Source: Paludibacteraceae bacterium
Lineage (GTDB): Bacteria > Bacteroidota > Bacteroidia > Bacteroidales > Paludibacteraceae
Length of the DNA: 64,000 nt
Assembly (NCBI GenBank): GCA_017509715.1
Contig: JAFWOU010000011.1
Span: forward strand, 62,001-126,000
Direction: 5' to 3'
The notes below the pieces were generated by a model. It was given only the letters and a program-made list of their open reading frames with translations. It did no database searches and was not told the origin of the DNA. Shown here in pieces: positions 1-18,966 of the stretch. Both the position numbers and the translations under genes were made by a program. Positions within the stretch are counted from its first letter, which is position 1. Each line of letters starts with the position of its first letter.

Positions 1-774
1 CAACAACCCGATCCTATTTCCGACGGAGTAGGGGCCGTTATTCAGGTGGCCGGCGAGGTGCGTACGCCCGCCGATAGCGTTGCGGATACCAACGGCCAAC
101 AGCTAACGACTAACGACCAAATCCCTGTCTGGAAACAGAAGTTCTACTACGCTTACAACTTCGACATCTACTGGCACCACGATTCCAAGACCAATACCAA
201 GGAGAACGGCTGGTCGATCACGCTGGAGCCGGAGATCGGTTGGAAACTCAAAGAGCGTGTCTATCTGGGTCTGCGTCTGGGCGGTTCGTTCCAGGATACG
301 TATTCCACGTATTCCTACCTCGATCCCACGACCGACAAGACCGTCTCCGAAGACCTGCGCGTCATGCAGGGCTCGTGGAACGTGACGCCCTATATGCGTT
401 ACCGACTCAAGACGCTCTTCAACGACAAACTCGGTATCTGGCTGGAGGCTCACCTTTTTGCCGGCATGGAGTTCCCGCGCGTGATAGACGGTAATGCCAC
501 GGGCACCGACTACGACGGGATACGCTATAGCGCCTCCTACGGTTGCCAGGTATCGCCGGTCATTACCTACCGCTTCAATCGCAAGTCCACCTTCCAGATC
601 TTCTTCTCCATCCTGAGCTTCGGCTATAGCGGCACGACGCGCTTCTATAATGGCAAGGACAACGAGTATAGCAACGATATCATCATCTTCTCGGGCAAAC
701 TGCGCAACCTGTTGGCTAACCAGTTTACGCCGGGCTTGTATGGTCTGAAATTCGGTGTGCAGAAGAATTTCTAA
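1..774 (+). CDS. outer-membrane beta-barrel protein, 5' end outside window
   Basis: The frame is open from base 1 to the stop at 772-774, so the gene starts upstream of the window; a GTG at 46 is in frame but need not be the start. The visible 257 residues alternate hydrophobic and polar positions, are rich in Tyr, Phe and Gly, and finish in GVQKNF with a terminal Phe, as expected for an outer-membrane barrel. I do not recognise a named family. Residues around LTTNDQ (bases 97-120) are encoded by a short 7-bp-period repeat, the same family found in the next gene at 2814-2857. The stop is followed immediately by the start of the TamB-Omp85 gene, so the two are probably co-transcribed and may both belong to outer-membrane assembly. 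Confidence 0.7.
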   Translation, partial: QQPDPISDGVGAVIQVAGEVRTPADSVADTNGQQLTTNDQIPVWKQKFYYAYNFDIYWHHDSKTNTKENGWSITLEPEIGWKLKERVYLGLRLGGSFQDTYSTYSYLDPTTDKTVSEDLRVMQGSWNVTPYMRYRLKTLFNDKLGIWLEAHLFAGMEFPRVIDGNATGTDYDGIRYSASYGCQVSPVITYRFNRKSTFQIFFSILSFGYSGTTRFYNGKDNEYSNDIIIFSGKLRNLLANQFTPGLYGLKFGVQKNF

Positions 775-3700
775 TTGAGACTGGCTCATCTGATATGGAT
801 CATTCCGCTTAAGCTCCTGAAGGCGGTAGCGGGTGTCATCATCTTGCTGCTCATTGCGGTAGCATGCCTGCTGTATGTCCCCTCGCTGCATAGGGTTATC
901 CTCACCGAGGGCGTACGCATTGCCAACGAGCAGACCGACTATGATATCGACCTTGGGCGTATCTACCTCTCGCCCTTCCATCATTCGCCGGCGCTGCTAT
1001 ACCGCGCCTATCGGGGCGAGGTCGACCTGCCGCTGCGCGTCGAGATCGACAGCCTCTTCATCGGTCACCGCGGCGTAGACACGCTTGCCTATATCCACTC
1101 CCTCCGCCTGCAAGCCACCTATCTTACAGCGCAGCGGTCCTACAGCGATAGCGGTCCTACAGCGAAGCGGTCTTACAGCGCCAGCGATCTTACATCTATT
1201 CCTATTGCAGTCGACACGTTAGTGCTCGACCGCACTACTTTCCATTCCGACAGCCTCATCGCCTCGGTGGGCGTGGATGTTATCTTGGGGCGTCTGGCGG
1301 TTGCCAGTCCCCGGCTCTCTATTGCCGAGGGCAGTTATCCCTTGCATGGCTTGCACTTGGACGATGCCGATGTAGGTATCGATCTGCGCGAGACGCCACC
1401 CGACACCACGGCCCAGGACACCACGCCGCTCCGCTTGGCCTTCCATGTGCCGGACGGCGAGATGCGTCGTCTCCATTTCCGACTCACACCGCTCAACCTG
1501 GATATCCGCACCGATCGTTTGGCCACCAATGCTATGATCGACGTCGGGGCCAATCGCTACGACGTGCGTCGCGTGGATATCGGCCGTCTGCGTTTCGGAA
1601 TGGCTGCGTTCAGCCTACCGGTGGATACCATCTATGGCGATGCCTGTGTGGACTTGCCGCAGAATCTGATCACCAGCAACGGCCTGCATGTGCGGGCCGA
1701 CTCACTGGGTGCTACGGCCGACCTGCAGGCTACCACGATGAACCTCGAGTCGATGCGGGTGGACGTAGCGGGTGACGTAGCTTACCGGGGTTCTCAAGCC
1801 CGCATCCGGGGCTACTATGATATCGACGATGCGGCCTACGATCTCCGAGCCGATATCAGCCGCGTCAATGCTCATGCCTTCAAACCCGACCTGCCACGTA
1901 TCGTGCTGGCCGGTACGGCCCGGGCACAAGGGCAGGGTATAGACCCCAAGTCGCCCGACATGACTTCTCATGTACAACTGGCGCTCACCGATGCCATCTA
2001 CGACTATATCGATGTCTCCGGTCTCCGCTTGGATGCCTCGCTGGCTCATCAGACAGTTCAGGGTACGCTGCATCTGCCCGTCAATATGGCCAACCGCGAT
2101 ATGCAGGTTCGGGCGCAGACGGATCACCGGTTCCGCGTAGCCCGTTTCCTGACGCCTGAGCAGATGGATGTGGACTACCACGGTCGGATGCATGGCGTTC
2201 ATGCGCACGTGGCCGGTAAGCAGATTGACGTAGATACCCTCCGGCTGGATGCCACGATGGCCGATCAAACGGTACAAGGAACGCTCCATTTGCCTTTCTC
2301 GTTGGCCGATCAGGATCTACAGGTTAGGGCGCGCACGGATCATGAGTTCCGTGTCGCCCGTTTCCTAACACCCTGCCGCATGGCCATTGACTACCATACC
2401 ACGATGCAGGACATCCATGCCCTGGTGGCCGATGAGCATTTCGATGCACGGACGCTGCGGATCGATTTCCTGACCGATACGGCGACCTCGCTGCAGTTGG
2501 CCTCCGACGGCTTGGACGTGCAGGCCAAGACACCCATGCATGCCTTGCGTTTTGTGGACCGCCTCCAGCCCCTGCTGCGTGCCGTGGGCGATTCGACGAT
2601 CATGAAACCTCTCACCTCGCTCTCGGACCTCACGATGCTTGATACGCTTCGGCGTCTCGTGCCCGCACTGCAGGCCGATGTGGAGTTGCGTCGAGGTAGT
2701 CCCGTGCAACATATTATCGAGCGTATGGGGCTCGATCTGCGGCAGGTCAACCTGTCGATGGCCTCCGATGCCGACCGTACCGATCTTGACCTCACCGCCT
2801 CCATCCCCGATATTGACCAACGACTAACGACCAACGACCAACGACCAACGACTAATCCACTCCGCCTCCCGGCGGTGGATGCCCGGCTCCATGTCCGCAT
2901 GACGGAGGGCAAGACCCGTGCTTCGCTGGCTGCCGATACGCGGCTCACGGATGGCGCCATGACGATCTACGACCTCTGCAGCGATGCCTCGCTCCGGCTT
3001 GATCTGGAGCGCACGGGACGCGAACTGTACGGTACGGGGCGGCTGATGCTGGATAGCATCTCGTACGGCAACCGCGACCTGGGAAGCCATGCTGTGGATA
3101 TGCAGATCTCGCCGTCTAAGGCCTATGCGCATGCCCTGCGTGCCGATGTGCAGTTGGACGATATACCTTTGGCGCTCGCAGAGACCTTCGTCACGCTGCC
3201 CGACATCGATATCCGGGGTGCGGTACGTGCGTCCGCTTCGGTGGACGGCTTGCCCGCCCGTACCGATATCTCGGCCGAGGTGCAACCGCTGGGCGTTGCG
3301 GCTGAATACAAACCCTATAAGATAGGTGTCAGCCTGGGCGAGACACCGATCATCATGCGCCACAACCACGTGGACCTCAACGGTCTGCCCATCTATGGTG
3401 CTGACAGCACCTACCTGGCCCTCTCCGGCGGACTGGACCTGAATACGATGCGTATGGATATCACCCTGGAGGCCGATAGCTTTGCGCCGGCTAAGTTGCC
3501 CAAGGGGGGACCGCTGCCCGTATATGGCGAACTGGCTACCGACATCCGCGGAAGTGTCACGGGTTCGCTAGACCGCATCGTGGCCGATGTGGATGTGACG
3601 CTCCTGCCGGTGACCGACATCACGTATCCGATTGATAAGAAGAACCTGGCGCAGGTGAAGCCGCATGGTACGGTCAACCTACGTTACGGCGTAGCGGACG

Positions 3701-5850
3701 GCGATCTGGCCATGCATGGCCGGATAAACGTGGATGACGGCTTCGTTCGTTATTCGCCCAAGATATACCCCGTCATGCCTTTCCATGTGGACTCGGGTAG
3801 CCACGTGGCGTTCAATGGTCCGCTGGGTCGCACGCGTCTTAACGTGTCGGCATCCCAGCACGTGAAGGCCGACGTGGAGTCGGAGGACGAGGAGACGCGC
3901 CGCGTGGACTTTATTACGGGTGTGCGAGTGAAAGGCGTGCTCGACTCGATCGGACTGCAGAGTATCGACTTCTTCCTGGAAGCCCCCGACGATGAGGACG
4001 TCACGCGTGAGTTGGCCTCGCTGGACGAGGAGACCCGCGAGGGACTGGCCGCTACGCTGCTGGCTACCGGTATGTACGTGGGCGAGAGCAACGTGGCCGC
4101 CCAGCGCGATGGCTATGCCCTCTCGTCGATCATCAATAGTCGTATCAATGCCGCGCTGGCCAACTCGAAGGTGGGTAAGTTTATCGACGTGGATGTCAGC
4201 AGCGGCCAAAGCACTCATGCCGCGGGCAAGACCAACGATATGAATATATCGATCAGCAAATCCTTCTTCAAGGACAAACTGCGCCTCACGCTGGGTTCTA
4301 CGCTGACGGACAATCCCGAGGTGAACACCGGCAGCGGCCTCTTCACCAATTTCAGTGCCGACTATAAGTTGACTAAGGACGGTAACGTCCTGCTGCGGCT
4401 CTATTCGCAGCGCGACTACAACAATATCCTGGAGGGTGAACTCTACAAGTCGGGCATCGGCGTACAGGCCAACAAGGACTGGCGCCGTCAGCAGCTCTTC
4501 CGGGGCGACTCGATCTGGCGCACCTACAGCCTCTCGGCCGATGCCGGCGTGGCCTACCGCTCCAACAATAGTATTGGTCCCGACCTGACGCTCCGTTCCT
4601 CTGTCCGCAACGTGCTGGGGCACGGCGAGAGCTTTACGCTCAAGGGCAACGGTGCCTACTACTGGGCGCTGCGCAACCGCCATCCGGGGGATCCCAAGAA
4701 GACCGATACCTACAAGCTCGGCCTCAACGCCTCGCTCGTGTTCCCCTACCTGCATTGGACGGGCGACAACAACCCCGAGGGCGATACCCGCTACATGCTC
4801 GGCTACCAGTACGAGAATATCGCCGGTGGCTACGGTGTGCATAAGGTGTCGGGTTCGCTCACCTATTTCATCCATTCGGCCCGCTCGCCTTATATCACGC
4901 ATGCCTTCACGCCCTTCTCGCTCTCCGTGGTGCTCATGAAGGCCGAGACCGACAGCCTGCTCAACAAGGCGGCTGAGTACCCGCAACTGATCAAGGTCAT
5001 TGCCGGCGATGAGTTTGTGCCCGCTATCGGTTACAACTTCATCTACGATGACTATCGTGCCACGCGGGCCGTGAATACCTACCTCAACCTGGGCGTCAAG
5101 GAGTCGGGCAACCTGCTCAACGCGCTCTACTGCCTCGGTGGTCGCAAGTGGAATGATGTGGATAAACCGATGGGCAAGATCACGTTCAACCAGTTTGTCA
5201 AGCTCACGGCCGAACTGCGCAACCGCTTCAATTTCCCCCACCAGGTCAGCATCGCTACGCGCCTATATGCCGGCGCCAACATACCGCTGGGTAACTCCCT
5301 GTTCTCGCCCCTCTCCGAGGCGTTCTACACCGGCGGTCCGAATAGCCTGCGTGCCTCCTCGCCCTATGCTTACGGTCCGGGTAATTTCTACTCGGCCAAG
5401 TACAACCAGAATTTCTTCCATTCCGGTGACGTCAAGCTTGAGGCCAACCTGGAGCTCCGCTTCCCCATCGTATGGAAACTGTACGGTGCAGCCTTCGTGG
5501 ATGCCGGTAATGTGTGGAACTGGTACTCGGTGGTTGATCTCTTCAAGGCGGCCGGCTACGACGACTACCTCACCCGCCTCCAGATACCCGAGACGCTCCG
5601 CGACGGCATCCTCAACAATCCCGACTTTGCCCGCCAGATAGCCCTCGGTACGGGTGCCGGTCTGCGTCTCGATATGGACGGCCTCGTTATCCGTCTCGAC
5701 CTGGGCGTAGGTATCCATGCGCCCTACCAGACCTTCCGCTACGACAAGGAGGGCAAGCCCGACACCTCGCAACCCATCACCACCTATTTCAATATGCCTT
5801 CTGCCCTGGATGCTATCCGCGTCAACTTCGGCATAGGCTACCCCTTCTGA
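775..5850 (+). CDS. TamB-like translocation module fused to an Omp85/TamA-type barrel
   Basis: This 1691-residue protein has one N-terminal membrane helix (about residues 10-32), then a long AsmA/TamB-type beta region. The TamB C-terminal domain ends near residue 1245; its signature (FFLEAPDDEDV followed by ATGMYVG) lies at about 1062-1095. The last 440 residues look like an Omp85 barrel: FYTGGPNSLRA near 1518-1528, then YGPGNFY, then FVDAGNVWNW near 1572, and a final Phe. TamB normally spans the periplasm from the inner membrane and works with a separate Omp85 protein (TamA, or TamL in Bacteroidetes) in outer-membrane protein assembly. Here both appear in one chain and no POTRA domains are visible before the barrel. 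The start is TTG directly after the previous stop; no ATG is better placed. Two repeat tracts (1121-1195 and 2814-2857) sit in frame. The domain calls are by motif and layout, not by search. Confidence 0.8.
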   Translation: MRLAHLIWIIPLKLLKAVAGVIILLLIAVACLLYVPSLHRVILTEGVRIANEQTDYDIDLGRIYLSPFHHSPALLYRAYRGEVDLPLRVEIDSLFIGHRGVDTLAYIHSLRLQATYLTAQRSYSDSGPTAKRSYSASDLTSIPIAVDTLVLDRTTFHSDSLIASVGVDVILGRLAVASPRLSIAEGSYPLHGLHLDDADVGIDLRETPPDTTAQDTTPLRLAFHVPDGEMRRLHFRLTPLNLDIRTDRLATNAMIDVGANRYDVRRVDIGRLRFGMAAFSLPVDTIYGDACVDLPQNLITSNGLHVRADSLGATADLQATTMNLESMRVDVAGDVAYRGSQARIRGYYDIDDAAYDLRADISRVNAHAFKPDLPRIVLAGTARAQGQGIDPKSPDMTSHVQLALTDAIYDYIDVSGLRLDASLAHQTVQGTLHLPVNMANRDMQVRAQTDHRFRVARFLTPEQMDVDYHGRMHGVHAHVAGKQIDVDTLRLDATMADQTVQGTLHLPFSLADQDLQVRARTDHEFRVARFLTPCRMAIDYHTTMQDIHALVADEHFDARTLRIDFLTDTATSLQLASDGLDVQAKTPMHALRFVDRLQPLLRAVGDSTIMKPLTSLSDLTMLDTLRRLVPALQADVELRRGSPVQHIIERMGLDLRQVNLSMASDADRTDLDLTASIPDIDQRLTTNDQRPTTNPLRLPAVDARLHVRMTEGKTRASLAADTRLTDGAMTIYDLCSDASLRLDLERTGRELYGTGRLMLDSISYGNRDLGSHAVDMQISPSKAYAHALRADVQLDDIPLALAETFVTLPDIDIRGAVRASASVDGLPARTDISAEVQPLGVAAEYKPYKIGVSLGETPIIMRHNHVDLNGLPIYGADSTYLALSGGLDLNTMRMDITLEADSFAPAKLPKGGPLPVYGELATDIRGSVTGSLDRIVADVDVTLLPVTDITYPIDKKNLAQVKPHGTVNLRYGVADGDLAMHGRINVDDGFVRYSPKIYPVMPFHVDSGSHVAFNGPLGRTRLNVSASQHVKADVESEDEETRRVDFITGVRVKGVLDSIGLQSIDFFLEAPDDEDVTRELASLDEETREGLAATLLATGMYVGESNVAAQRDGYALSSIINSRINAALANSKVGKFIDVDVSSGQSTHAAGKTNDMNISISKSFFKDKLRLTLGSTLTDNPEVNTGSGLFTNFSADYKLTKDGNVLLRLYSQRDYNNILEGELYKSGIGVQANKDWRRQQLFRGDSIWRTYSLSADAGVAYRSNNSIGPDLTLRSSVRNVLGHGESFTLKGNGAYYWALRNRHPGDPKKTDTYKLGLNASLVFPYLHWTGDNNPEGDTRYMLGYQYENIAGGYGVHKVSGSLTYFIHSARSPYITHAFTPFSLSVVLMKAETDSLLNKAAEYPQLIKVIAGDEFVPAIGYNFIYDDYRATRAVNTYLNLGVKESGNLLNALYCLGGRKWNDVDKPMGKITFNQFVKLTAELRNRFNFPHQVSIATRLYAGANIPLGNSLFSPLSEAFYTGGPNSLRASSPYAYGPGNFYSAKYNQNFFHSGDVKLEANLELRFPIVWKLYGAAFVDAGNVWNWYSVVDLFKAAGYDDYLTRLQIPETLRDGILNNPDFARQIALGTGAGLRLDMDGLVIRLDLGVGIHAPYQTFRYDKEGKPDTSQPITTYFNMPSALDAIRVNFGIGYPF
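1121..1195 (+). repeat. in-frame repeat of the TCYTACAG family
   Basis: Four imperfect copies of a unit beginning TCCTACAG or TCTTACAG, 16-17 bp apart and joined by CGAAGCGG-like linkers, lie inside the TamB part of the coding region. The same unit recurs at 18971-19050 inside another gene. The stretch keeps the reading frame and adds about 25 polar residues. Confidence 0.7.
2814..2857 (+). repeat. in-frame heptamer tract, unit GACCAAC
   Basis: Six consecutive 7-bp units (GACCAAC or GACTAAC/T) lie in the coding region of the TamB-Omp85 protein and encode a run of Asp, Gln, Arg, Thr and Asn. The same unit occurs at 97-120 and a related one at 23566-23600. Confidence 0.8.
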
Positions 5851-5892
5851 TAGTAACCCGTAACCCGTAACCCATAACCCCTAACCCATAAT
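5851..5892 (+). repeat. intergenic heptamer tract, unit TAACCCG/A
   Basis: Five or more 7-bp units (TAACCCG, TAACCCA, TAACCCC) fill the whole gap between the TamB-Omp85 stop and the umuD start. No promoter box is visible in the gap. Confidence 0.85.
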
Positions 5893-6327
5893 ATGAGTAA
5901 ACTGATAGACATAACGGATTCCGAACAGGCCGAACTGGCGCTGGAGTTTGCGGAATCGATACATGCCGGATTTCCCTCTCCGGCAGCGGACCATGCAGGC
6001 GAACGTATCAACTTGGCACGCGAGATGACGCCGCATCCCGAGACGACCTTCTATGCCCACGTGGAAGGCGACTCGATGCGTGATGCCGGCATTCTGGACG
6101 GCGATATTGTCGTAGTAGATCGTAGTCTGAACCCGAAGAACGGCGACTTCATCGTGGCCTATATCGATGGCGAATATACGCTCAAGGAGTTTCGGATGGA
6201 CGAGCGCGAGCAATGCGCTTGGCTCATACCCCACAACCCCGATTTTCAGCCCATCCGCGTAGATCAGCACAACAATTTCTCGGTATGGGGCGTCGTGACC
6301 TACGCGATTCACAAAACTCGGATATAA
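5893..6327 (+). CDS. umuD: UmuD-type S24 autoprotease subunit of DNA polymerase V
   Basis: UmuD is cleaved during the SOS response; the shortened form joins UmuC to make translesion polymerase V. The 144-residue length matches the family. The self-cleavage site HAG-FPSPAAD is present (Ala25-Gly26), the catalytic serine is Ser61 in GDSM, and the catalytic lysine is Lys98 in YTLKEF, nearly the same numbers as in the Escherichia coli protein. umuC follows 61 bp downstream, separated only by a heptamer repeat, which supports an operon. No LexA-type operator was identified in front; the upstream gap is entirely TAACCC repeat. Confidence 0.93.
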   Translation: MSKLIDITDSEQAELALEFAESIHAGFPSPAADHAGERINLAREMTPHPETTFYAHVEGDSMRDAGILDGDIVVVDRSLNPKNGDFIVAYIDGEYTLKEFRMDEREQCAWLIPHNPDFQPIRVDQHNNFSVWGVVTYAIHKTRI

Positions 6328-6388
6328 ATTGTACATCGTACATTGTAAATCGTACATCGTACATCGTACACTGTAAAATCGTACATCC
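6328..6388 (+). repeat. intergenic heptamer tract, unit TCGTACA
   Basis: About eight imperfect 7-bp units (TCGTACA, with TTGTAAA and CTGTAAA variants) occupy the gap between umuD and umuC. A short piece of the same family is found in frame at about 18768-18782. Confidence 0.85.
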
Positions 6389-7651
6389 ATGTATGCCTTA
6401 GCGGACTGCAATAATTTCTTCGTCTCGTGCGAACGCGTGTTCCGTCCTGACCTGGAGGGACGGCCTGTGGTAGTGCTGTCGGGCAACGACGGCTGCGTGG
6501 TCAGCCGCTCCAACGAAGCCAAGGCGCTCGGCATCCCCATGGGCGTACCGCTCTACCAGATCCGTCCGCTCGTGGACCGAGAGGGCGTGGTCTGCTTCTC
6601 GTCCAATTTCTCGCTATACGGCGACCTGTCCGACCGTGTGATGTCACTCATCCGTCGGCATACGCCCCGCTTTGAGCAGTACTCCATCGACGAGTGCTTC
6701 TTCAGCATCGATCATATCCCGGCCGAGCAGCAGAAAGCCTACTGCGAGCAACTGGTACGCGACATCCGCCAGGGCGTGGGTATTCCCGTCTCCATTGGCA
6801 TCGCGTCCTCGAAGACGCTCGCTAAGGTGGCCAGCAAGTACGCCAAGAAATACCCCGGCTATCGCGGCGTATGCGAGATACGCACCGACGAGCAACGCCG
6901 GAAAGCCCTCTGTGCCTTTGAGATAGGCGACGTATGGGGGATCGGCCGCAAGGCGAGAGCCAAACTGGAACGTGCCGGCATCCGTACGGCTTTGGATTTT
7001 GCCGAACGATCCAGTACCTTCGCCCGCAACCTGCTGCACAAGCCCGGACTGCTCACCTGGCAGGAACTGCAAGGACAGGACGTGATCGACATCCGCGACC
7101 TGCCGATGAAGCAGACCATCACCACCTCGCGCACCTTTGCCTCGGCTATCACGGATAGGCAACTGCTGGAGGAGCAGATCGCCAATTTCTGCGCCCGCTG
7201 TGCCCGCCAACTCAGGATGCAGAAGTCGGTGGCTAAGCAACTGTATGTCTATGCCCATACCTCGTCGTTCCGTACCGACATAGAGCAGCACTACCTGCAG
7301 GAACTGGTAACCCTACCCGTAGCCACCGCCAACAACCGGGAGCTGATCGCCTATGCGCTCGGCGCACTCCGCCGCGCCTACCGACCCGGCGCGCAGTATA
7401 AGAAAGCCGGCGTAGTGCTGATGAAGATCATGCCCGAGGCAGCAGTCGTCCCCGACATGTTCGATACCCATGACCGCGAACGCGACCGCCGACTGCAACG
7501 TGCGCTGGACCATATAGAAGACCGGCACGGCAAACGGGCAATCGTTCTGGGTGCACAGACCGGCAGCGAAACGACGGTCTATAAGACCGAACACAAGAGC
7601 CGCCTCTATACGACCGACCTCAGAGATATAATAACGGTGAAGAGCCGCTAA
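6389..7651 (+). CDS. umuC: UmuC-type Y-family DNA polymerase
   Basis: Catalytic subunit of the error-prone polymerase V that copies past DNA lesions together with processed UmuD. The 420-residue length is normal. The metal-binding acidic residues are in place: Asp6 in LADCNNF and Asp101-Glu102 in YSIDECF. The steric-gate region (FFVSCERVF), the helix-hairpin-helix region ([15 protein letters not shown]) and the little-finger region are all present, and the C-terminus is intact. The ATG at 6389 lies just after the heptamer tract. It most likely shares a transcript with umuD. Confidence 0.93.
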
Positions 7652-9246: not shown

Positions 9247-12200
9247 ATGAAACGATTTCTGTATGTAGTCGCACTATGCCTACTGGCAGCAGCGACGAGT
9301 GTGCAGGCGAATGACTACCTGGAGCAGGAGCGACATTACACCGTGATGAGTATGGGTAATGGTGTGCTGCGGTTCTACGTGCCGATCTGGGTATACGGTC
9401 GTGCCAACGACTACTACCTGGAGGGACACAATGACTTCAGCAGTACGGAAGACTCGTACATCTGGTACTCCACGAGTCCGAACGCGAGCCGCGGTAGCAG
9501 CTCCGTGCATCGTATTGCCTCGGTATCGGCCGTACGCTATGGCAAGAACGACCAGGACGGCAGTGAGGGTCAGGGATATATCTATATCCACGAGGGAAGT
9601 GCCATCATCCAGAGTACGTTCAACGGCGAGCCTATCGTGCTGCAGGCGGGCGACGACACCTACTGGGCGGGCTGGCAACGCCAGATGTCGCTCAAGCGCA
9701 AGGAGGACGATGACCACAAGCGCATCACCTACTTCATCTTTGACTGGTACCCACCCACGTCGTTGCAGAACACGGATTTCTACTGGGGCGTGAGTGCGAA
9801 TATATACAAGAAATCGAGCGGCGAGAGCAGCTACAAGCACTGGTGGGCCAAGCCCGATAAGTTCCGCGGTAACAAGACCCCGCAGACGCCGGAGCTGTTC
9901 CAGCCCTATTTCTACGCCATGGACGAGGGCGGTGCGACGGGTTACGGATGCGCCGGGGTGCAGTTTACGGTGTATCAGGAGCCGGTGAGCTACCATACCT
10001 CGCTCAACAGCCAGGAGGTGCTACTCAACGAGCGTGCGAGTACGATCGTCGTGCCGACTAAGGACACGGTGCAGCGTTTCTTCTCGGGATCGTTCACCGT
10101 CAAGGTGGATGACGGCGGCAACACGCAGACGCTGAAATCCAACGAGGTGCATATCCCGGCTTACCACCGCGTGTATGACCTGAGCGGACAGGAGGTGCTG
10201 GACGAGAAGAAGACCGTGACGGGCGACGTGCAGCTGAGTTGGCAGATCCATAACCCGAGTGCGCAGGACCTGATAGAGGGCGACGTGTTTGAGGTGCAGC
10301 GTGCGACGCAGGCCGACTTCTCGGACGCAGAGACGATAGAGACCGTGCCGTACCGACGCGATTCGGCCAACTACCACGTGAAGGACAACCCGCTGCTGGC
10401 CCTGGGTGCCGACACGTCGGAGCTGGATCAGAAGGAGCAGAGCATGTACGTGACGCGCAAAGTGGTGAGCAAGGATGCGGCCGGCAAGCCGTACGCCGAG
10501 TATGAGGTAAGGCTGAGCAGCGAGAAAGTGAAGTTCCCGGGCCGCAGTATCTACTACCGTGTGCGCCGTGCTTCCGCCTCGATATGGGGATGGGACCATG
10601 AGTTTGCGAAGACGGCCAAAGTGGTGAGTCAGGACTACCTGGCGCCGCTGGCCGAGACGCAAGAGGCCTATACCAAGGATCCGGACTTCGCGACCAACCG
10701 CAAGGTGCATTTCCACCTCCGTCTGGACAACAGCACCGTAACGCCCGTGACAGAGCCGGAGACCCAATGCCGCTACACGGCCAAGGTGTCGAAGATGGTG
10801 ATCGACTCGTTCCCGGTACGCGTACAGGCGATACGCGATATGAACAATATGGGTGCCTACACGCCGGCGGACTATGAGTTCGTGCTGGAGATCACGAAGG
10901 GCAACCTGGTGGAGGAAAAGCCGCTGAAGATTACGAAATACTACAGCTACTGCAGCAGCTCGTATCCGGCCGATGCGGAGCGGGTACGACTGGTGGTACG
11001 CGAGCGGACGAGTGGCCGACGCGTGATGGGTACCAACACGGCCGCGATAGGCGTGCCGTACGTGAAGACGGTGATCCTCAAGTTCGGTCAGGGCGACTAT
11101 GCGAAAGCCGAGTTTGACTACGACGGGAATGTCTATCGTCAGTTGAAAGACTCGCTGGAGAATGCGCATCCGCTGAAGCATGACAGCATGCGTCATGAGC
11201 TCTACCTGGAGCTGCAGCAGAAGATAGCCAGCGTAGGTGCGGAGGGCAACCCGCGCTGCACGTGGGACAAAAACGCGCTGCTCTACCTGCGCCGCACGCT
11301 CACGGAGACAGGCGAGACAATAGAGTATGTGGTGCCGCAAGACAGCATCGTGCGCAATGCGGACGGTACGTGGGGCGCCCATATGGTAGTGGAGGCCGAC
11401 CGTGCATGCGTGCATTATCAGTATAGCGTACGCATCGACCAGAGCAACTCGATGGTGAAGGTGATCAATCCCGATCAGCTGCTACCCAAGACGATCCAGG
11501 GTCCGGACCTGTTCTACAACGAGGTGGCCAGCATTGCCCGCTTCCATGCAACGGACGGCGACGATCGCTACAGCGTGCTGCTGAACTGGGAACCGACGCC
11601 GGGCGGACTGGACGTGTATGAGCTGCGTCGCCGCGAAGCCGGCAGTACGGCCGCTTATGACTCGCTGACGACGACCACGGAGACCGACTATCGCGACAGC
11701 GATGTGGAGCCGGGTAAGCAGTATGAGTACCAGCTCACGGCACGCTATACCTGCAACAGCACCACGACCACCAGTACGGCCACCACGACCGGCCGTCGCT
11801 CGCCCTACGGACGTATCTCCGGCCGGATCCATTATGCCGACGGTACGGGATGCCCGGGCGTGAAAGTGACGCTGACGGCCACTGGAGCTGCCGACGCACG
11901 GACCACCGTGACGGACGAGCAGGGTATATACGTATTCGACAGCCTGCTCTATGGTGCTGGCAAGACCTATGCCATCGTGCCGACATCGACCACAGCCGAG
12001 TTCCGATTCAACAACACGACGGCCACGACGGCCTTTGTGGGCCTGAGTGCCGACAACCCCGTAGCCGATGCGATCCAGTTTGAGAATATATCATCGGTAC
12101 GCCTCTCGGGTCGCGTGCTCTACGCCAAGTCGAGCATACCGGTGCGCGAGGCTAACATACTGATCAACGACCGCGTGGTGAAGACCGCAGGCGGTGAACT

Positions 12201-15200
12201 GAAGACCGACATCTCCGGTAACTTTGAGCTATGCGTACCGCGTGGTGCAGGCTTCACGCTGCGGGTGACGAAGCCGGGCCACACCTTCGAGGGCGACGGT
12301 TACGTACGGATGAACAATAGCACCACTTTGGCGCTCACCGAGCCGCAGGACGGCGTGCGCGTATGGGACCAGACCAAGGTACGCCTGGCAGGCCGCGTAG
12401 TAGGCGGACGGGTGCAGGCCGAGAAGCCGCTGGGCTTCAGCTTGAGCCAGAACAACCTGGGCGACGACCTGCAACTGGTGCTGGAGCTGGAGGGCGATAA
12501 TATCTCCCACATCGTACGCGATGAGAACGACCTGACGCGTGACACCATGGAATACACCGTACAGCACGAGGTGTCGGGCGAGACACAGGTACACTACCTG
12601 CGCAAGCGCATCGTCATCAATCCCGATCCTCAGACGGGCGAGTTTTTTGCCGACCTGTTCCCCGTTCGCTACAAGATCACCCAGGCCACGGCCAGCGGCT
12701 ACGCCACGCTCTTTGCGGAAGGTAAGACCTCCGAGACCCTGGAGCTGAGCGATGCGGCCCGTATGATGGATAGCGTGGTATATGGCGACGACACTATTCG
12801 TTTTAATGCACGCTACGACATTACCTACCGCTCGCCGATCTCGATCTCTTGTATCCAGCTCCGCTACGGCATGCCGCTGGACTTCTACGGCGAGCAGAGT
12901 ATGGTGCGCCAGAATATCCAGAACGAGGAGATCGAGGTGCCGCTCGTGATGCGCGACACCTTAGGCGATCTGCATTACCTCTTCGGTGCCCCGGTATTCG
13001 GCATGGGCAAGTACCGCTTCCGCATCACGGCGCATGAGGACTACTATTACAACAACGAGCAGAACGGCCGCCACGAGGAGGTACGTCTGCAGGGCGGTAA
13101 ACTGAAGGTATATAACGGCTTGTATGATGCGGTCAGCACCCAGATACTGACCGAGTCGCTTGACCGGAACGGCCAGGCCGACGTGACGCTGCCGGTGGAC
13201 TATGTATCGTTCCTCAAGACGGGCGAGCAGGCCCTGCGTGTGCTGGACCTGTCGGTAGAGAGCGACGGCCAGTACGTAGAGCAGACCGCCTTACGCGCCT
13301 ACGTGACGGGCAACAAGGCCAAGGAACGCAACTTCCTGACCACGGCCAACGCCGGCGTGACGCTGCTTGACATCCTGCGCGACCCGCCGGGATCGTCCAG
13401 CTATGCATATATCGAGAAAGGAACGACCTATAAATACAACTACACATGGAGCTTCACGGGTAAGTTCGGCGTGGAGATAGGTGCTAAATACGGTACGGGC
13501 AACTCGATCAACATGGGTTCGTACTTAGGTACCCCGGGTGGTATATTCAGCGGCTACAATATCAATACCTCGGTAGCCAACACCTTTGCGCTGCCCATAT
13601 CCTCGCAGGTGGACTACAAGCGATCCAGCTCCTATACCTTCACCACTTCGGAACGGATAGAGACGGGCAACGACACCTGGTTCGTAGGTTCGCGCGGCGA
13701 TGTATATATCGGTGCTACGCAGACGGCCTATTTCGGTCTGACCGATGCGGTGAAACCGCTCGACTCGTTGACCTATGTGTCGCTCGCAGCACGCCTGGAA
13801 GGCAATGCAGGTGCGTCCGCCTCGATGCATACCGTAGCCGAGGGACGTGACCTGAAGGGCAATAAGTACTACCTGGTGATCGGCGAAGAGACCGAGGCCG
13901 GCGCTGCTGTGACCGGTACGTTTGCCTACACCCAGGACTATATCCTGAATACGATGCTCCCGAAGCTGATCCGCGAGCGTAATGCCTTGCTCGTGACGGG
14001 CGACAGTATGACGGTACAGCAGATAGCCAACGTACGCAAAGACGTGGTCTACTGGTCCAAGGTGCCGGCCGATGCCGATGAGTATGCACTGACCAGCTAC
14101 GTCAAGCTCTACCCGAACGGCAAGAATACCAACTGGATCGATATCGACGAGGTGGCATCCTACAACAAGCAGATCCTGAACTGGATCAACCTCATCAAGC
14201 AGAATGAGCGCGAGAAACTGACGCTCATGAGCGGCGTGAATGCCGACTCGGTAGGTACCTATTCGGTCAGCTCGGGCGTGAAGCTATCGCACAGCGAGAC
14301 CTACGACTACAGCTCGACCATCGCCTACCGTTGGGACTTCCCGGGTGGCAACCTGTCGGGTACCTTTGCCACCAAGTTTGCCAGCGCACTCTCGGGAGTA
14401 AGCGAGAATATCACGCGTATGATCACCAACTTCGTCAATTTGGTTCCGAACAATGACAACCATCGTATCGAACGTACCGGCGTGGATCCTTTGGAGCTGG
14501 ACGGTACGGTGCCGGGAGCGAAATGGTCGTTTACCATCAAGCCGATACTGGATGTCAACTTCGACCGCGACCCGAGCGAGGTGAAGGAACATAAGAAGTC
14601 GGCCGGCTTTGTGCTGCAGAGCGATTCCTACTCGTCGATGAATGTGAGCGTGCTGCGTCTGCGCGAACCGCAGAACGAGTTCAACCAGGATTCGCAAAAC
14701 GAGCGTGAGTTTATCGACAACGGCAACGACTACGACGGTACGAGCTATCAGTACGGTTCGTTCATATATGTGCTGAACGGTGGTGCTACCAAGTGCCCGT
14801 GGGAGGGACCGGAAGAGTCGGTATTCTACGAGATAGGCGGTCAGCCCGCCATCATCTCTCGCGGTACGGCCAAGCTGGAGAACCCGAAGATCGACCTCAC
14901 CGTTCACGAGCGCAGCGACGTGCCGCACGACAAAGCTGCTATCTTCAACCTGCGTCTATCCAACGAGGTGGAGGATGATATCAGCGGCAATGCCGGCTTC
15001 GTGATCTTCAAGTTGCGCGTAGAAGACGCTTCGAACCCCAAGGGCGCCAAGATCCTGATGGACGGTATGCCGCTGATAGGCCAAGCACGGGATATTAAGA
15101 TCAACCCGGGGCAGGTGATCAACAAGACCCTCGAGGTCTATGCCGGCGAGGACTACGACTACGAAGATATCACCCTCACCCTCTTCTCCACCTGCGATGT

Positions 15201-18200
15201 GCTGACCTACGACAAGGCTTCCTTCACCGTCCACTACATGCCCGTGAGCTGCCCCGTTAGCATCTCGGCGCCGCACGACAAGTGGGTGATGAATACCCTC
15301 TCGCCCCGCGACTCGGCCGGCTACTACATGCCGATCGTCATCGACGGATTTGACGTCAACTACAACAACTTCGACCATATTGAGTTCCAGTACAAACTCA
15401 CCAAACAGTCGGACGATGCATGGGTCAACCTCTGTTCCTACTATGCCGACAGCACGCTCTACCGGGCGGCCTCCGGCTCCAAGGACATGATCCGCGGCGG
15501 ACGTATCGACAATATCCGCTTCTACGGCGAGCGCGACCCCATGGAGCAGCAGTACGACCTGCGGGCCGTCTCGTTCTGCCGCCACGGCAGCTCGTTTATC
15601 ACCCGCACCTCGCCCGTGCTGACCGGCGTCAAGGACACCCGTCCGCCTGTCGTATTCGGCGAACCCGAACCTGCCAACTCCATACTGGGCGTGGGTGACC
15701 ACCTCAAGCTGCGCTTCAACGAGGCCATTGCCGGCAACTACCTGGACGAGGACAACAACTTCCAGATCACCGGCATCACCAACGCTACCGGCCTATCATC
15801 GGCTACGGCACTCCATTTCAACGGACATTCTTCTGCCACTACCAAGGCCAAACGTGACCTGACCGACAAGTCGTTTACCGTCGACATGATGATCCGTCCT
15901 ACCGAGGCTGGCAGCCGCGCCGCAGACATGATCCTCTTCGAGACCGGTGACGGTCAAAGTACCAAGCAACTGATACTCACCCGCGACAACCGCCTGCGTA
16001 TGATTCAGACCGTAGGCAAGAACAGCCTGGGCAAGACGTCCAACGTGCTGGATCCGATTCTTTCCTTCCAGCGCGTGCTGGTAGTATACGACAAGCCATC
16101 CAACCGTATCCTTTTCTATCATGGCAACAAGGACGTCACTTCCAACCTGATCGGCGAGACCAGTCATCAGGAGGATGCCCACGAGAGTAGCGCCTACTTT
16201 ACCTTCGGTTCTTCCTACCGGGGCGACATGCTCGAGACCCGCATCTGGACCAAGGCCCTGACTCCTGAAGAGATCAGCGCTACGGCCGGCCATACCCTCA
16301 CGGGTTACGAACGCGAACTGTTGGCTTACTACCGCATGGACGAGGGCAAGGGCGAGACCGTCAGCGACCATGCCCACGGCGCAACGCTCTACCTCAACGG
16401 CTGCTCGTGGAACAAGCGCAAGGGCTACTCGCTCCGCCTCGAGGATGACTCGGTTCGCTTGGACGGCAACCTGATGGGACGCTCCGCTGTATACGACGAG
16501 ACGCTCATGCTATGGTTCCGTGCCGAGACCAACGGTACGCTCTTCCGTGCCGACAACACCCGCATCGCCCTCAAGGACGGCCGTCTGGTGCTCCATAGCG
16601 GACAGACCGAGAAGACGGCCAACGCGCAGCTGGTCAACAACGAGTGGCACCACCTGGTGCTCACCATCAGCCGCACCTACAATAGCGCCGCTATCTTCGT
16701 GGACGGCAAGATCTACCAGACCTTCAGCGCATCGGACCTGCAGGGTATTACGGGCACGATGTACCTGGGCGGCACCGGCTTCCGAGGACTGATCGACGAG
16801 TTCTCGATCTTTGAGCAGGCACTGCCGCAACAGCTCGTCGAGCTATACGACGAGAATGACCTCACCGGCGACGAGATGGGGCTGATGGCCTATCTGCCCT
16901 TCGAGGAGCAATATACCAACCAGAACGGCATCATGGAGCAGCGCTTCTCCGTGAACGACCAGCGCGTGTTTAAGGATGGTAAGGGCAATGTGGTCAACAA
17001 GGTCGTACCGCTGCTCTTGGACAATGCACAAACCTCCACCGACAATGCGCCCGTCAAGTCGCACGGCGAACTCAAGAAACTGCATTTCAACTGGGCGTTC
17101 AACAACGATGAACTGCTCATCAATATCCTCAACCGCGACTACGAGGTCAACAAGCAGTCGATCTACGTCACCGTACGCGACGTCGAGGATCTCAACGGCA
17201 ACCCGATGACCTCGCCCGTGACCTGGACCGCCTTTGTGGATCGCAATAGCCTCAAGTGGTCGGCTAAGCAGCTGATCATGGAGAGCAACGACCACGAGCA
17301 GAGCGACCTCAGCTCCGTCGTACGTATCGTCAACCAGAGCGGTAAGCGCCATACCTATACCATCGAGTCGATGCCTTCGTGGCTCCGCGTAGACGCCGCC
17401 TACGGTGCTATCGATCCGATGGGCGAGCAGACCGTTCGCCTGACCTTCACAAGCCAGACACCTGTGGGCGAATACAGCGACTTTATCTACCTCACCGACG
17501 AGGACGGCCTCAGCGAACCGCTCCAGGTAGTTTATCGGGTAAAGGCTATGCCGCCTTACGAGAATATGGACGAGGGTAAGTACCCGCTCAATATGTCGAT
17601 CTGCGCCCGGGTGGAGATCACCACCGACGACGGCTTCTTCTTCGACAACGACGAGCGTGACATCGTCTATGCCCTCTATCGCAACGAGTGCGTAGGCCAG
17701 GCCAACGTGACGGTCAATGCCGCCAGCAACACCGCCGATGTCTACCTCACCGTACTCGGACAAGACGAGATGAACCGCAAGCAGATCCAGTTCCAACTCT
17801 GGCAGGCTTCTACCGGTAAGGTCTACGACCTCACGGCCAACCGGAACGTACTGTTCTCCCACGGCTTTGTATATGGCTGCGACGGCGAGCCGCTCGTGCT
17901 GACCACCAGCGGTAGCGAACGCCAACAGATCCAGCTCTACGCAGGCTGGAACTGGTCGTCCGTCAACCTCGACCTCCATGCTACCGGCGGCCGCTTGGAG
18001 ACTTGCATGTCGGCCGCACAACCCTGGACCGAGGGCGACCTGATCAAGAACCCTGCTACCCGTCAGTTTAGCACCTACAACGAGGCTAACAATGCCTTTG
18101 TCGGTACGCTCCTGTCTCTGCACCATAAGCAGATGTACATGATCTATACAGCCAAGGGCAACACCATGCGCATCTCGGGCGAACTGCTGCCGAGCGACTC

Positions 18201-18966
18201 GATGACCATCTCCGTACGCGGCGACGGCCAGTGGAGCCCGATGCCGTGCCTGCTCGATCAGCGCACCTCGGTCACCGAAGCCCTGGCCGACTACTACCAG
18301 AAAGCCGGCACGGGCGATATGATCAAGGCCCACAACCGCTTTGCTACCTTCTCGGCCGACAAGCGATGGGTAGGTGACCTCCAGGCACTCGTGCCGGGCG
18401 AGGGCTACCTGTTCCGCCGCATGGCCCCGGGTACGGTCGAGATCGCCTTCCATCGCAAAGAACAGGCTCAGAGTACTCAGAATAATCGGAATAATCTGAT
18501 TACTCAGACTGCGCCGACTGCCTTCTCCAACCCGCAGGCCGCGACCAACATGACCATGATCGCCCGCGTGGAGGGCAATCCGCCATGCATGACGGATGCT
18601 ACCATCCGCGTCTACGTCGGCGACGAACTGGCTTGCGTAGCAACCCCGGTAACCGGTAACCCATCACCCGTAACCGAGAACCTCTATTTCCTCACGATCC
18701 AGAGCGATCGGGTAGGCGAACTCCGATTCGAACTTGACGGCCAAACCTTGGTTCCTTCGTCCATCAATCGTACATCGTACATCTGTCCTTCGTCCATAGA
18801 GTATATCCCCGACGCCCACTATGGTTCGTTGGACGAACCGCTCGTGCTGGTTCCGGTAACCGGTAACCCCTCACCCGTAACCGCTCCTTACAAGATTATC
18901 GAAAACGACCATATAGTAATAATTCGAAACAATGAAAAATATGATGTTACAGGTAAAAAACTCTAA
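9247..18966 (+). CDS. 3239-residue secreted multidomain surface protein with LamG and Ig-type modules
   Basis: Begins with a signal peptide (MKRFLYVVALCLLAAATS, cleavage after VQA). Rough order: a fibronectin-III-like unit (771-850), two or three carboxypeptidase-regulatory-like beta sandwiches (855-940, 950-1020, about 1045), a large Gly/Ser/Tyr-rich central region (1360-1800), an Ig-like unit near 2130, two LamG/concanavalin-like domains (2181-2350 and 2390-2540; ends GLIDEFSIFEQAL), another Ig-like unit (2610-2660), a BACON-like segment with PSWLRVD (2694-2775), a domain starting GWNWSSVNL (2900-3060) and the C-terminal motif with IIENDHIVIIRN. Such modules bind carbohydrate or protein at the surface; the ligand is unknown. 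Repeat-coded insertions occur near 18466-18510, 18641-18676 and 18853-18881. The last 35 bases overlap the next gene. No protease or hydrolase active site was seen. Confidence 0.85.
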   Translation: MKRFLYVVALCLLAAATSVQANDYLEQERHYTVMSMGNGVLRFYVPIWVYGRANDYYLEGHNDFSSTEDSYIWYSTSPNASRGSSSVHRIASVSAVRYGKNDQDGSEGQGYIYIHEGSAIIQSTFNGEPIVLQAGDDTYWAGWQRQMSLKRKEDDDHKRITYFIFDWYPPTSLQNTDFYWGVSANIYKKSSGESSYKHWWAKPDKFRGNKTPQTPELFQPYFYAMDEGGATGYGCAGVQFTVYQEPVSYHTSLNSQEVLLNERASTIVVPTKDTVQRFFSGSFTVKVDDGGNTQTLKSNEVHIPAYHRVYDLSGQEVLDEKKTVTGDVQLSWQIHNPSAQDLIEGDVFEVQRATQADFSDAETIETVPYRRDSANYHVKDNPLLALGADTSELDQKEQSMYVTRKVVSKDAAGKPYAEYEVRLSSEKVKFPGRSIYYRVRRASASIWGWDHEFAKTAKVVSQDYLAPLAETQEAYTKDPDFATNRKVHFHLRLDNSTVTPVTEPETQCRYTAKVSKMVIDSFPVRVQAIRDMNNMGAYTPADYEFVLEITKGNLVEEKPLKITKYYSYCSSSYPADAERVRLVVRERTSGRRVMGTNTAAIGVPYVKTVILKFGQGDYAKAEFDYDGNVYRQLKDSLENAHPLKHDSMRHELYLELQQKIASVGAEGNPRCTWDKNALLYLRRTLTETGETIEYVVPQDSIVRNADGTWGAHMVVEADRACVHYQYSVRIDQSNSMVKVINPDQLLPKTIQGPDLFYNEVASIARFHATDGDDRYSVLLNWEPTPGGLDVYELRRREAGSTAAYDSLTTTTETDYRDSDVEPGKQYEYQLTARYTCNSTTTTSTATTTGRRSPYGRISGRIHYADGTGCPGVKVTLTATGAADARTTVTDEQGIYVFDSLLYGAGKTYAIVPTSTTAEFRFNNTTATTAFVGLSADNPVADAIQFENISSVRLSGRVLYAKSSIPVREANILINDRVVKTAGGELKTDISGNFELCVPRGAGFTLRVTKPGHTFEGDGYVRMNNSTTLALTEPQDGVRVWDQTKVRLAGRVVGGRVQAEKPLGFSLSQNNLGDDLQLVLELEGDNISHIVRDENDLTRDTMEYTVQHEVSGETQVHYLRKRIVINPDPQTGEFFADLFPVRYKITQATASGYATLFAEGKTSETLELSDAARMMDSVVYGDDTIRFNARYDITYRSPISISCIQLRYGMPLDFYGEQSMVRQNIQNEEIEVPLVMRDTLGDLHYLFGAPVFGMGKYRFRITAHEDYYYNNEQNGRHEEVRLQGGKLKVYNGLYDAVSTQILTESLDRNGQADVTLPVDYVSFLKTGEQALRVLDLSVESDGQYVEQTALRAYVTGNKAKERNFLTTANAGVTLLDILRDPPGSSSYAYIEKGTTYKYNYTWSFTGKFGVEIGAKYGTGNSINMGSYLGTPGGIFSGYNINTSVANTFALPISSQVDYKRSSSYTFTTSERIETGNDTWFVGSRGDVYIGATQTAYFGLTDAVKPLDSLTYVSLAARLEGNAGASASMHTVAEGRDLKGNKYYLVIGEETEAGAAVTGTFAYTQDYILNTMLPKLIRERNALLVTGDSMTVQQIANVRKDVVYWSKVPADADEYALTSYVKLYPNGKNTNWIDIDEVASYNKQILNWINLIKQNEREKLTLMSGVNADSVGTYSVSSGVKLSHSETYDYSSTIAYRWDFPGGNLSGTFATKFASALSGVSENITRMITNFVNLVPNNDNHRIERTGVDPLELDGTVPGAKWSFTIKPILDVNFDRDPSEVKEHKKSAGFVLQSDSYSSMNVSVLRLREPQNEFNQDSQNEREFIDNGNDYDGTSYQYGSFIYVLNGGATKCPWEGPEESVFYEIGGQPAIISRGTAKLENPKIDLTVHERSDVPHDKAAIFNLRLSNEVEDDISGNAGFVIFKLRVEDASNPKGAKILMDGMPLIGQARDIKINPGQVINKTLEVYAGEDYDYEDITLTLFSTCDVLTYDKASFTVHYMPVSCPVSISAPHDKWVMNTLSPRDSAGYYMPIVIDGFDVNYNNFDHIEFQYKLTKQSDDAWVNLCSYYADSTLYRAASGSKDMIRGGRIDNIRFYGERDPMEQQYDLRAVSFCRHGSSFITRTSPVLTGVKDTRPPVVFGEPEPANSILGVGDHLKLRFNEAIAGNYLDEDNNFQITGITNATGLSSATALHFNGHSSATTKAKRDLTDKSFTVDMMIRPTEAGSRAADMILFETGDGQSTKQLILTRDNRLRMIQTVGKNSLGKTSNVLDPILSFQRVLVVYDKPSNRILFYHGNKDVTSNLIGETSHQEDAHESSAYFTFGSSYRGDMLETRIWTKALTPEEISATAGHTLTGYERELLAYYRMDEGKGETVSDHAHGATLYLNGCSWNKRKGYSLRLEDDSVRLDGNLMGRSAVYDETLMLWFRAETNGTLFRADNTRIALKDGRLVLHSGQTEKTANAQLVNNEWHHLVLTISRTYNSAAIFVDGKIYQTFSASDLQGITGTMYLGGTGFRGLIDEFSIFEQALPQQLVELYDENDLTGDEMGLMAYLPFEEQYTNQNGIMEQRFSVNDQRVFKDGKGNVVNKVVPLLLDNAQTSTDNAPVKSHGELKKLHFNWAFNNDELLINILNRDYEVNKQSIYVTVRDVEDLNGNPMTSPVTWTAFVDRNSLKWSAKQLIMESNDHEQSDLSSVVRIVNQSGKRHTYTIESMPSWLRVDAAYGAIDPMGEQTVRLTFTSQTPVGEYSDFIYLTDEDGLSEPLQVVYRVKAMPPYENMDEGKYPLNMSICARVEITTDDGFFFDNDERDIVYALYRNECVGQANVTVNAASNTADVYLTVLGQDEMNRKQIQFQLWQASTGKVYDLTANRNVLFSHGFVYGCDGEPLVLTTSGSERQQIQLYAGWNWSSVNLDLHATGGRLETCMSAAQPWTEGDLIKNPATRQFSTYNEANNAFVGTLLSLHHKQMYMIYTAKGNTMRISGELLPSDSMTISVRGDGQWSPMPCLLDQRTSVTEALADYYQKAGTGDMIKAHNRFATFSADKRWVGDLQALVPGEGYLFRRMAPGTVEIAFHRKEQAQSTQNNRNNLITQTAPTAFSNPQAATNMTMIARVEGNPPCMTDATIRVYVGDELACVATPVTGNPSPVTENLYFLTIQSDRVGELRFELDGQTLVPSSINRTSYICPSSIEYIPDAHYGSLDEPLVLVPVTGNPSPVTAPYKIIENDHIVIIRNNEKYDVTGKKL
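18466..18881 (+). repeat. cluster of in-frame repeat tracts near the end of the giant gene
   Basis: Three repeat families lie within 420 bp of coding sequence: ACTCAGA/AATCGGA units at 18466-18510, TAACCGG/TAACCCA units at 18641-18676 and again at 18853-18881 (both translated as PVTGNPSPVT), and TCGTACA units at about 18768-18782. All keep the frame. Confidence 0.7.

Follow-up and report, generated by a model that had tools for sequence, protein, structure and literature searches.

The window, a stretch of 64,000 nucleotides, encodes a TamB protein and an Omp85 barrel in a single open reading frame of 1691 residues (positions 775–5850, plus strand), with no POTRA domain between them. We consider it fairly probable that the product works as a self-contained POTRA-free TAM, built from an inner-membrane anchor, a lipid groove, and a barrel that is entered by TamB's own strands. 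More tentatively, since this proposal seems to us somewhat more doubtful than probable, one chain in both membranes could form a whole hybrid-barrel TAM, permanently joined and lacking POTRAs, that spreads horizontally among gut Bacteroidales and, in its main genus, serves a dedicated outer-membrane protein encoded next to it. The reading frame starts with a TTG codon immediately past the stop of the upstream gene. The features are as follows:

1..774, plus strand: 3' part of a gene for a conserved outer-membrane protein of 277 residues with a secretion signal, which starts 60 bases before the window (adjacency, co-occurrence, alignment A4)
775..5850, plus strand: TamB2–TamL2 fusion gene, 1691 residues (profile matches and homologue alignment)
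784..876, plus strand: hydrophobic helix at the N-terminus, residues 4–34, probably a signal anchor for the inner membrane (AlphaFold helix with a low pLDDT of 52–63)
937..3960, plus strand: TamB/AsmA-like β-groove, residues ~55–1062 (continuous β-strands in the models)
3646..4416, plus strand: C-terminal match of Pfam TamB (PF04357), residues 958–1214 (7.6e-16)
4186..4491, plus strand: six C-terminal TamB β-strands, residues 1138–1239 (strands 264–365 of model md831500cd156)
4492..4515, plus strand: junction, a turn of 8 residues (1240–1247) where POTRAs would be (model and motif spacing)
4516..5847, plus strand: TamL-type Omp85 barrel of 16 strands, with the C-terminal FGIGYPF (lipo_TamL match, model, and fold search)
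5323..5355, plus strand: FYTGGPNSLRA, extracellular-loop motif conserved in Omp85 proteins (both G and the R are invariant in alignment A1)
5494..5523, plus strand: FVDAGNVWNW, strand motif conserved in Omp85 proteins (almost without variation in alignments A1 and A2)

An earlier note on this DNA had claimed that TamB and an Omp85 barrel share one chain, and the profile matches bear this out for both halves. The last ~440 residues are matched by NCBIfam lipo_TamL (residues 1250–1691, 2e-90) and by Pfam Omp85 (residues 1472–1688, 8.5e-14). The Pfam TamB match, for which the cut-off is 22.4 bits, scores 58.8 in a scan of the C-terminal 817 residues, and it is also found in a six-frame search of the genome. 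It is absent when longer pieces of the protein are scanned, which we take to be a filter effect of a long and repetitive protein. Within the groove, residues 421–731 give a weak YdbH-like match that stays below its cut-off (25.8 versus 26.3 bits). The lipo_TamL model is covered only from position 335 to 747 of 747 and, therefore, the barrel is present but the POTRA half is missing; the score of 304 bits is below the full-length cut-off of 400. No POTRA domain was found between the halves, either in the Pfam scan, in the unmatched lipo_TamL positions 1–334, or within the 26–43 residues that separate the flanking motifs. The profile scans and this short spacing rule out a hidden POTRA, and the same note had been right to see none there, the junction being a turn of 8 residues only. 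A conserved lipobox is also missing, with a cysteine within or after the N-terminal hydrophobic run in only 48 of the 96 homologues. A lipoprotein reading of the protein's own IAVAC motif was dropped because the cysteine is not conserved among homologues.

Searches of relatives revealed 98 complete fusion reading frames of 1374–1700 residues in other, independent assemblies, a count in which some species appear twice, once per genome collection. All 98 end in FGIGYPF. In 84 of 93 homologues, 34 residues separate the TamB end motif EGxLxKxG from the first barrel motif RSNNSxGP (range over all 93, 26–43), and the linker sequence itself differs among them. Mean column identity across the C-terminal 817 residues is 77%. 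The dN/dS values are between 0.04 and 0.22 on both sides of the junction, in the groove, the C-terminal domain, and the barrel, and purifying selection on the fusion gene is shown at the codon level. An assembly or frameshift artefact has next to no chance of being the explanation. It would be suggested by the source genomes, which are mostly MAGs, and by two homologues, L096 (962-5589) and L112 (3572-8442), in which the fusion is split by frame changes and which represent decaying copies or sequencing errors. The intact copies from independent assemblies, the constant junction spacing, and the dN/dS values rule it out. The frameshift or assembly join near base 4500 that the note had named as its own possible undoing is thus ruled out by the homologues.

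AlphaFold2 models were computed for two overlapping pieces of the protein. The model of residues 1–900 (mean pLDDT 78.5) starts with the N-terminal helix followed by continuous β-strands, in agreement with the helix and β repeats that had been read from the sequence. The model of residues 875–1691 (mean pLDDT 74, pTM 0.60) shows helices, six TamB strands (1138–1239) of the kind with which the TamB C-terminal domain imitates an outer-membrane protein, the turn of 8 residues, and 16 barrel strands, so that the TamB strands run into the barrel. A fold search with the C-terminal model retrieved TamA barrels as the best solved structures. The N-terminal groove gave only weak matches with low TM-scores (LPD-3, LptD), which were left out of the evidence. 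In the cryo-EM structure of Escherichia coli TamAB (PDB 9xdc), the TamB C-terminal domain consists of two helices and six strands, and the last strand pairs with β1 of TamA in about half of the particles (PMC12800296). The ends of this strand and of β1 meet on the periplasmic side (PMC12800296), the strand direction being our own reading of the loop contacts. A short turn into β1 would therefore be a natural fusion site. Judging from the strand order and the short turn, the last TamB strand of the fusion probably pairs with β1 of the barrel as well. Because the turn links just the two strands that pair in E. coli TamAB, the modelled protein resembles a hybrid barrel of 6+16 strands built as one covalent chain. 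In effect, the predicted TamB–β1 link took the place of the POTRA3–β1 link, and according to the model the covalent turn is the substitute for POTRA docking. The E. coli structure assigns essential contacts to the POTRAs, and deletion of POTRA2 in TamA was lethal in an E. coli assay (PMC12800296).

The fusion did not arise from the proteins that provide the main TAM of the cell. The genome of the window also encodes BamA (939 residues), a separate TamL (774 residues), and a separate TamB (1512 residues), and the separate TamB is kept in the other fusion-bearing genomes checked. The fusion is therefore an extra system and not a replacement of the cell's TAM. Of the reading given in the note, the single POTRA-free chain stands. 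That the essential TamB and TamL were fused is ruled out by these separate copies and by AU tests, which rejected grouping of the fusion with TamL in the barrel tree (p = 0.025) and with TamB in the TamB tree (p = 0.0018). In the barrel tree, the fusions and Bacteroidales TamL2 share one side of a branch (100/98), and in the TamB tree the fusions lie inside a clade of 33 rows together with Bacteroidales TamB2 (100/100). Nesting of the barrel in one TamL2 lineage (family f22) gave an AU p of 0.054. The fusions form a single clade in both trees, and a single origin is shown as far as gene trees go. Unfused tamB2 and tamL2 genes are located end to end in many other Bacteroidales and often overlap. 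The fusion barrel aligns with TamL2 only from TamL2 residue ~350–430 onward, so that the lipoprotein signal and all POTRAs have been lost. At the level of homology and gene order, derivation from the accessory tamB2–tamL2 operon with loss of the TamL2 lipoprotein signal and all POTRAs (~390 residues) is indicated. According to PMC12045153, such an operon occurs in 20 of 30 Bacteroidota surveyed, and in Flavobacterium johnsoniae it is dispensable, has no assigned function, and exists beside essential, unlinked TamB and TamL genes.

The genome of the window contains an Omp85 protein of 360 residues without POTRA, of the 'noNterm' kind (L004 997-2079, G000:C3), and the gene behind it resembles, by eye, a ribosome small-subunit GTPase (RsgA-like). 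Within the window, repeats of 7 bases (ACCAACG and CCCGTAA types) are interspersed at 88-120, 2816-2862, 5856-5899, 18645-18688, and 18852-18881. They are found both between genes and within coding regions, and the fusion protein owes stretches such as RLTTNDQRPTTN to them. By eye, a UmuD/LexA-like and a UmuC-like gene follow just downstream of the fusion (5893-7651); this pair is not conserved beside the fusion in the other loci examined. A reading frame of 3239 residues (9247-18966), likewise judged by eye, might encode a multi-domain secreted or surface protein.

The fusion was found in the genus of the window, in three more genera of its family, and in two other families, and thus in three families of the order. 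Apart from that of the window's own genome, no fusion was found among the matches listed for 396 phylum-wide genomes (E 1e-30), and no independent one among those listed for other sampled families, a search in which weak independent fusions could be missed. Where public records name the host, it is an uncultured Bacteroidales or a 'Paludibacteraceae' MAG, in many cases from ruminants. In the barrel tree, the fusions found in families f2 and f101 fall among those of the window's genus (95/98). Probably, the fusion moved between families by horizontal transfer, because the path from f2 to the genus amounts to ~0.5 changes per column for the barrel versus ~4 for TamB, yet barrel and TamB paths are about equal within the genus (0.9 each). 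The loci L183 5921-10726, L184 5909-10717, and L182 5840-10642 carry f2/f101 fusions nested in the window's genus, and the separate TamB proteins of these genomes are far apart.

In 74 of the 98 loci the upstream gene for the 277-residue protein is on the same strand, at -106 to +45 nucleotides from the fusion reading frame. The proteins of ~277 residues represent a new family without any Pfam match above cut-off, the window's protein matching OMP_b-brl_2 only weakly (16.4 bits versus a cut-off of 27). Among the genomes searched, the gene is present only in those with the fusion. In the window's genus, 26 of the 28 genomes that carry the fusion have this gene, as against none of the 16 that lack the fusion (Fisher p = 4e-10, kinship ignored). 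On a TamL tree the fusion label changes 9 times, with 7 or more changes on starred branches. In the 7 supported independent contrasts, the partner gene changes in the same direction in ~6.2 and in the opposite direction in none (sign-test p ~0.03). The gene persists unlinked in G007 and G021 and is ~9 kb off in G020. It was not found in the fusion genomes of genera g32 and g33 of family f1 or of families f2 and f101, and therefore not all fusions require it. By its co-occurrence, the outer-membrane protein is a candidate client or accessory of the fusion.

This co-occurrence also speaks for a dedicated insertase, in which the fusion would mainly assemble the upstream-encoded outer-membrane protein and the TamB part would hold the unfolded client and deliver it to the barrel gate. 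Adjacency, the agreement of the contrasts with none opposed, and the retention of the gene even where it is unlinked all favour this explanation. However, fusions of other genera and families do without the gene, so that insertion of this protein cannot be the only job. In addition, missing contigs may remove both genes together from draft genomes, although seven of the fusion-free genomes are 98–100% complete. Altogether, we regard the dedicated insertase as rather unlikely. It is less likely still that the chain is a polyprotein, cleaved close to the junction while in the periplasm to give an ordinary two-part TAM with a POTRA-less barrel. Such a cut would be a simple solution to the topology problem, and the variable linker sequence is consistent with it. 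However, the length of the junction is nearly fixed and the model carries the sheet on through it, and a freed barrel without POTRAs could hold TamB by strand pairing alone, there being no other known way. The patchy presence of the fusion, for which starred branches carry 7 or more changes, and the dispensability of TamB2 and TamL2 in F. johnsoniae could point to a mechanical tether or a decaying paralogue without transport function. Given the low dN/dS in groove, C-terminal domain, and barrel, and the identity of the C-terminal part, this seems to us quite improbable.

A self-contained TAM thus remains the explanation that we prefer. The N-terminal helix would stay in the inner membrane and the β-groove would cross the periplasm, and we infer that one molecule spans and tethers both membranes. 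BAM would insert the barrel, guided by the C-terminal aromatic signal, and the last C-terminal strand of TamB would continue via the short turn into β1 of the barrel. POTRA docking would then not be needed for carrying lipid, and perhaps also strands of the co-encoded outer-membrane protein, to the outer membrane. Because deletion of POTRA2 of TamA is lethal in E. coli, the loss of the POTRAs could have cost some TAM functions.

To our knowledge, no characterised natural protein has a helix for the inner membrane and a barrel for the outer membrane in one chain, and the fusion raises the question how such a chain gets made. It represents a natural experiment on the working of TAM, in which the strands paired in E. 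coli are joined and the POTRAs are absent. If the fusion is active, the hybrid barrel would be a working rather than a passing state and POTRAs would be dispensable for docking. The co-inherited outer-membrane protein is a ready candidate client, which has hitherto been missing for TamB2–TamL2. A TamB–Omp85 fusion is not mentioned in the sections covered of PMC12045153, PMC4494059, and PMC4104836, or in our literature searches, which covered open-access journal papers.

Among the closest known systems is the TamB2–TamL2 operon of Bacteroidota (Fjoh_1899–Fjoh_1900; PMC12045153), which agrees with the fusion in the homology of both halves, in the trees, and in gene order, and which is likewise accessory to an essential TamB and TamL. 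It consists, however, of two genes, and its TamL2 is a lipoprotein with three POTRAs, whereas the fusion is one gene with neither the signal nor a POTRA. POTRA-less Omp85 proteins ('noNterm', WD40-Omp85, and patatin-Omp85) similarly have a barrel without POTRA or with another N-terminal domain, but their N-terminus is WD40, patatin, or nothing, and the parts of PMC4104836 covered do not mention a TamB-to-barrel fusion. The hybrid-barrel state of E. coli TamA–TamB (PDB 9xdc; PMC12800296) shares with the modelled fusion protein the helix, the groove, six strands with the last one beside β1, and a barrel of 16 strands. There, two chains pair reversibly and three POTRAs make contacts, while in the fusion the strands are covalently joined. 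The essential TamB and TamL of the Bacteroidota have the same folds and are still encoded elsewhere in the fusion genome, but they are unlinked and unfused, and the AU tests place the fusion outside both clades. In chloroplasts, TIC236 and TOC75 also combine a TamB-like bridge and an Omp85 barrel across two membranes, but, unlike the fusion, they are two proteins and TOC75 retains its POTRAs.
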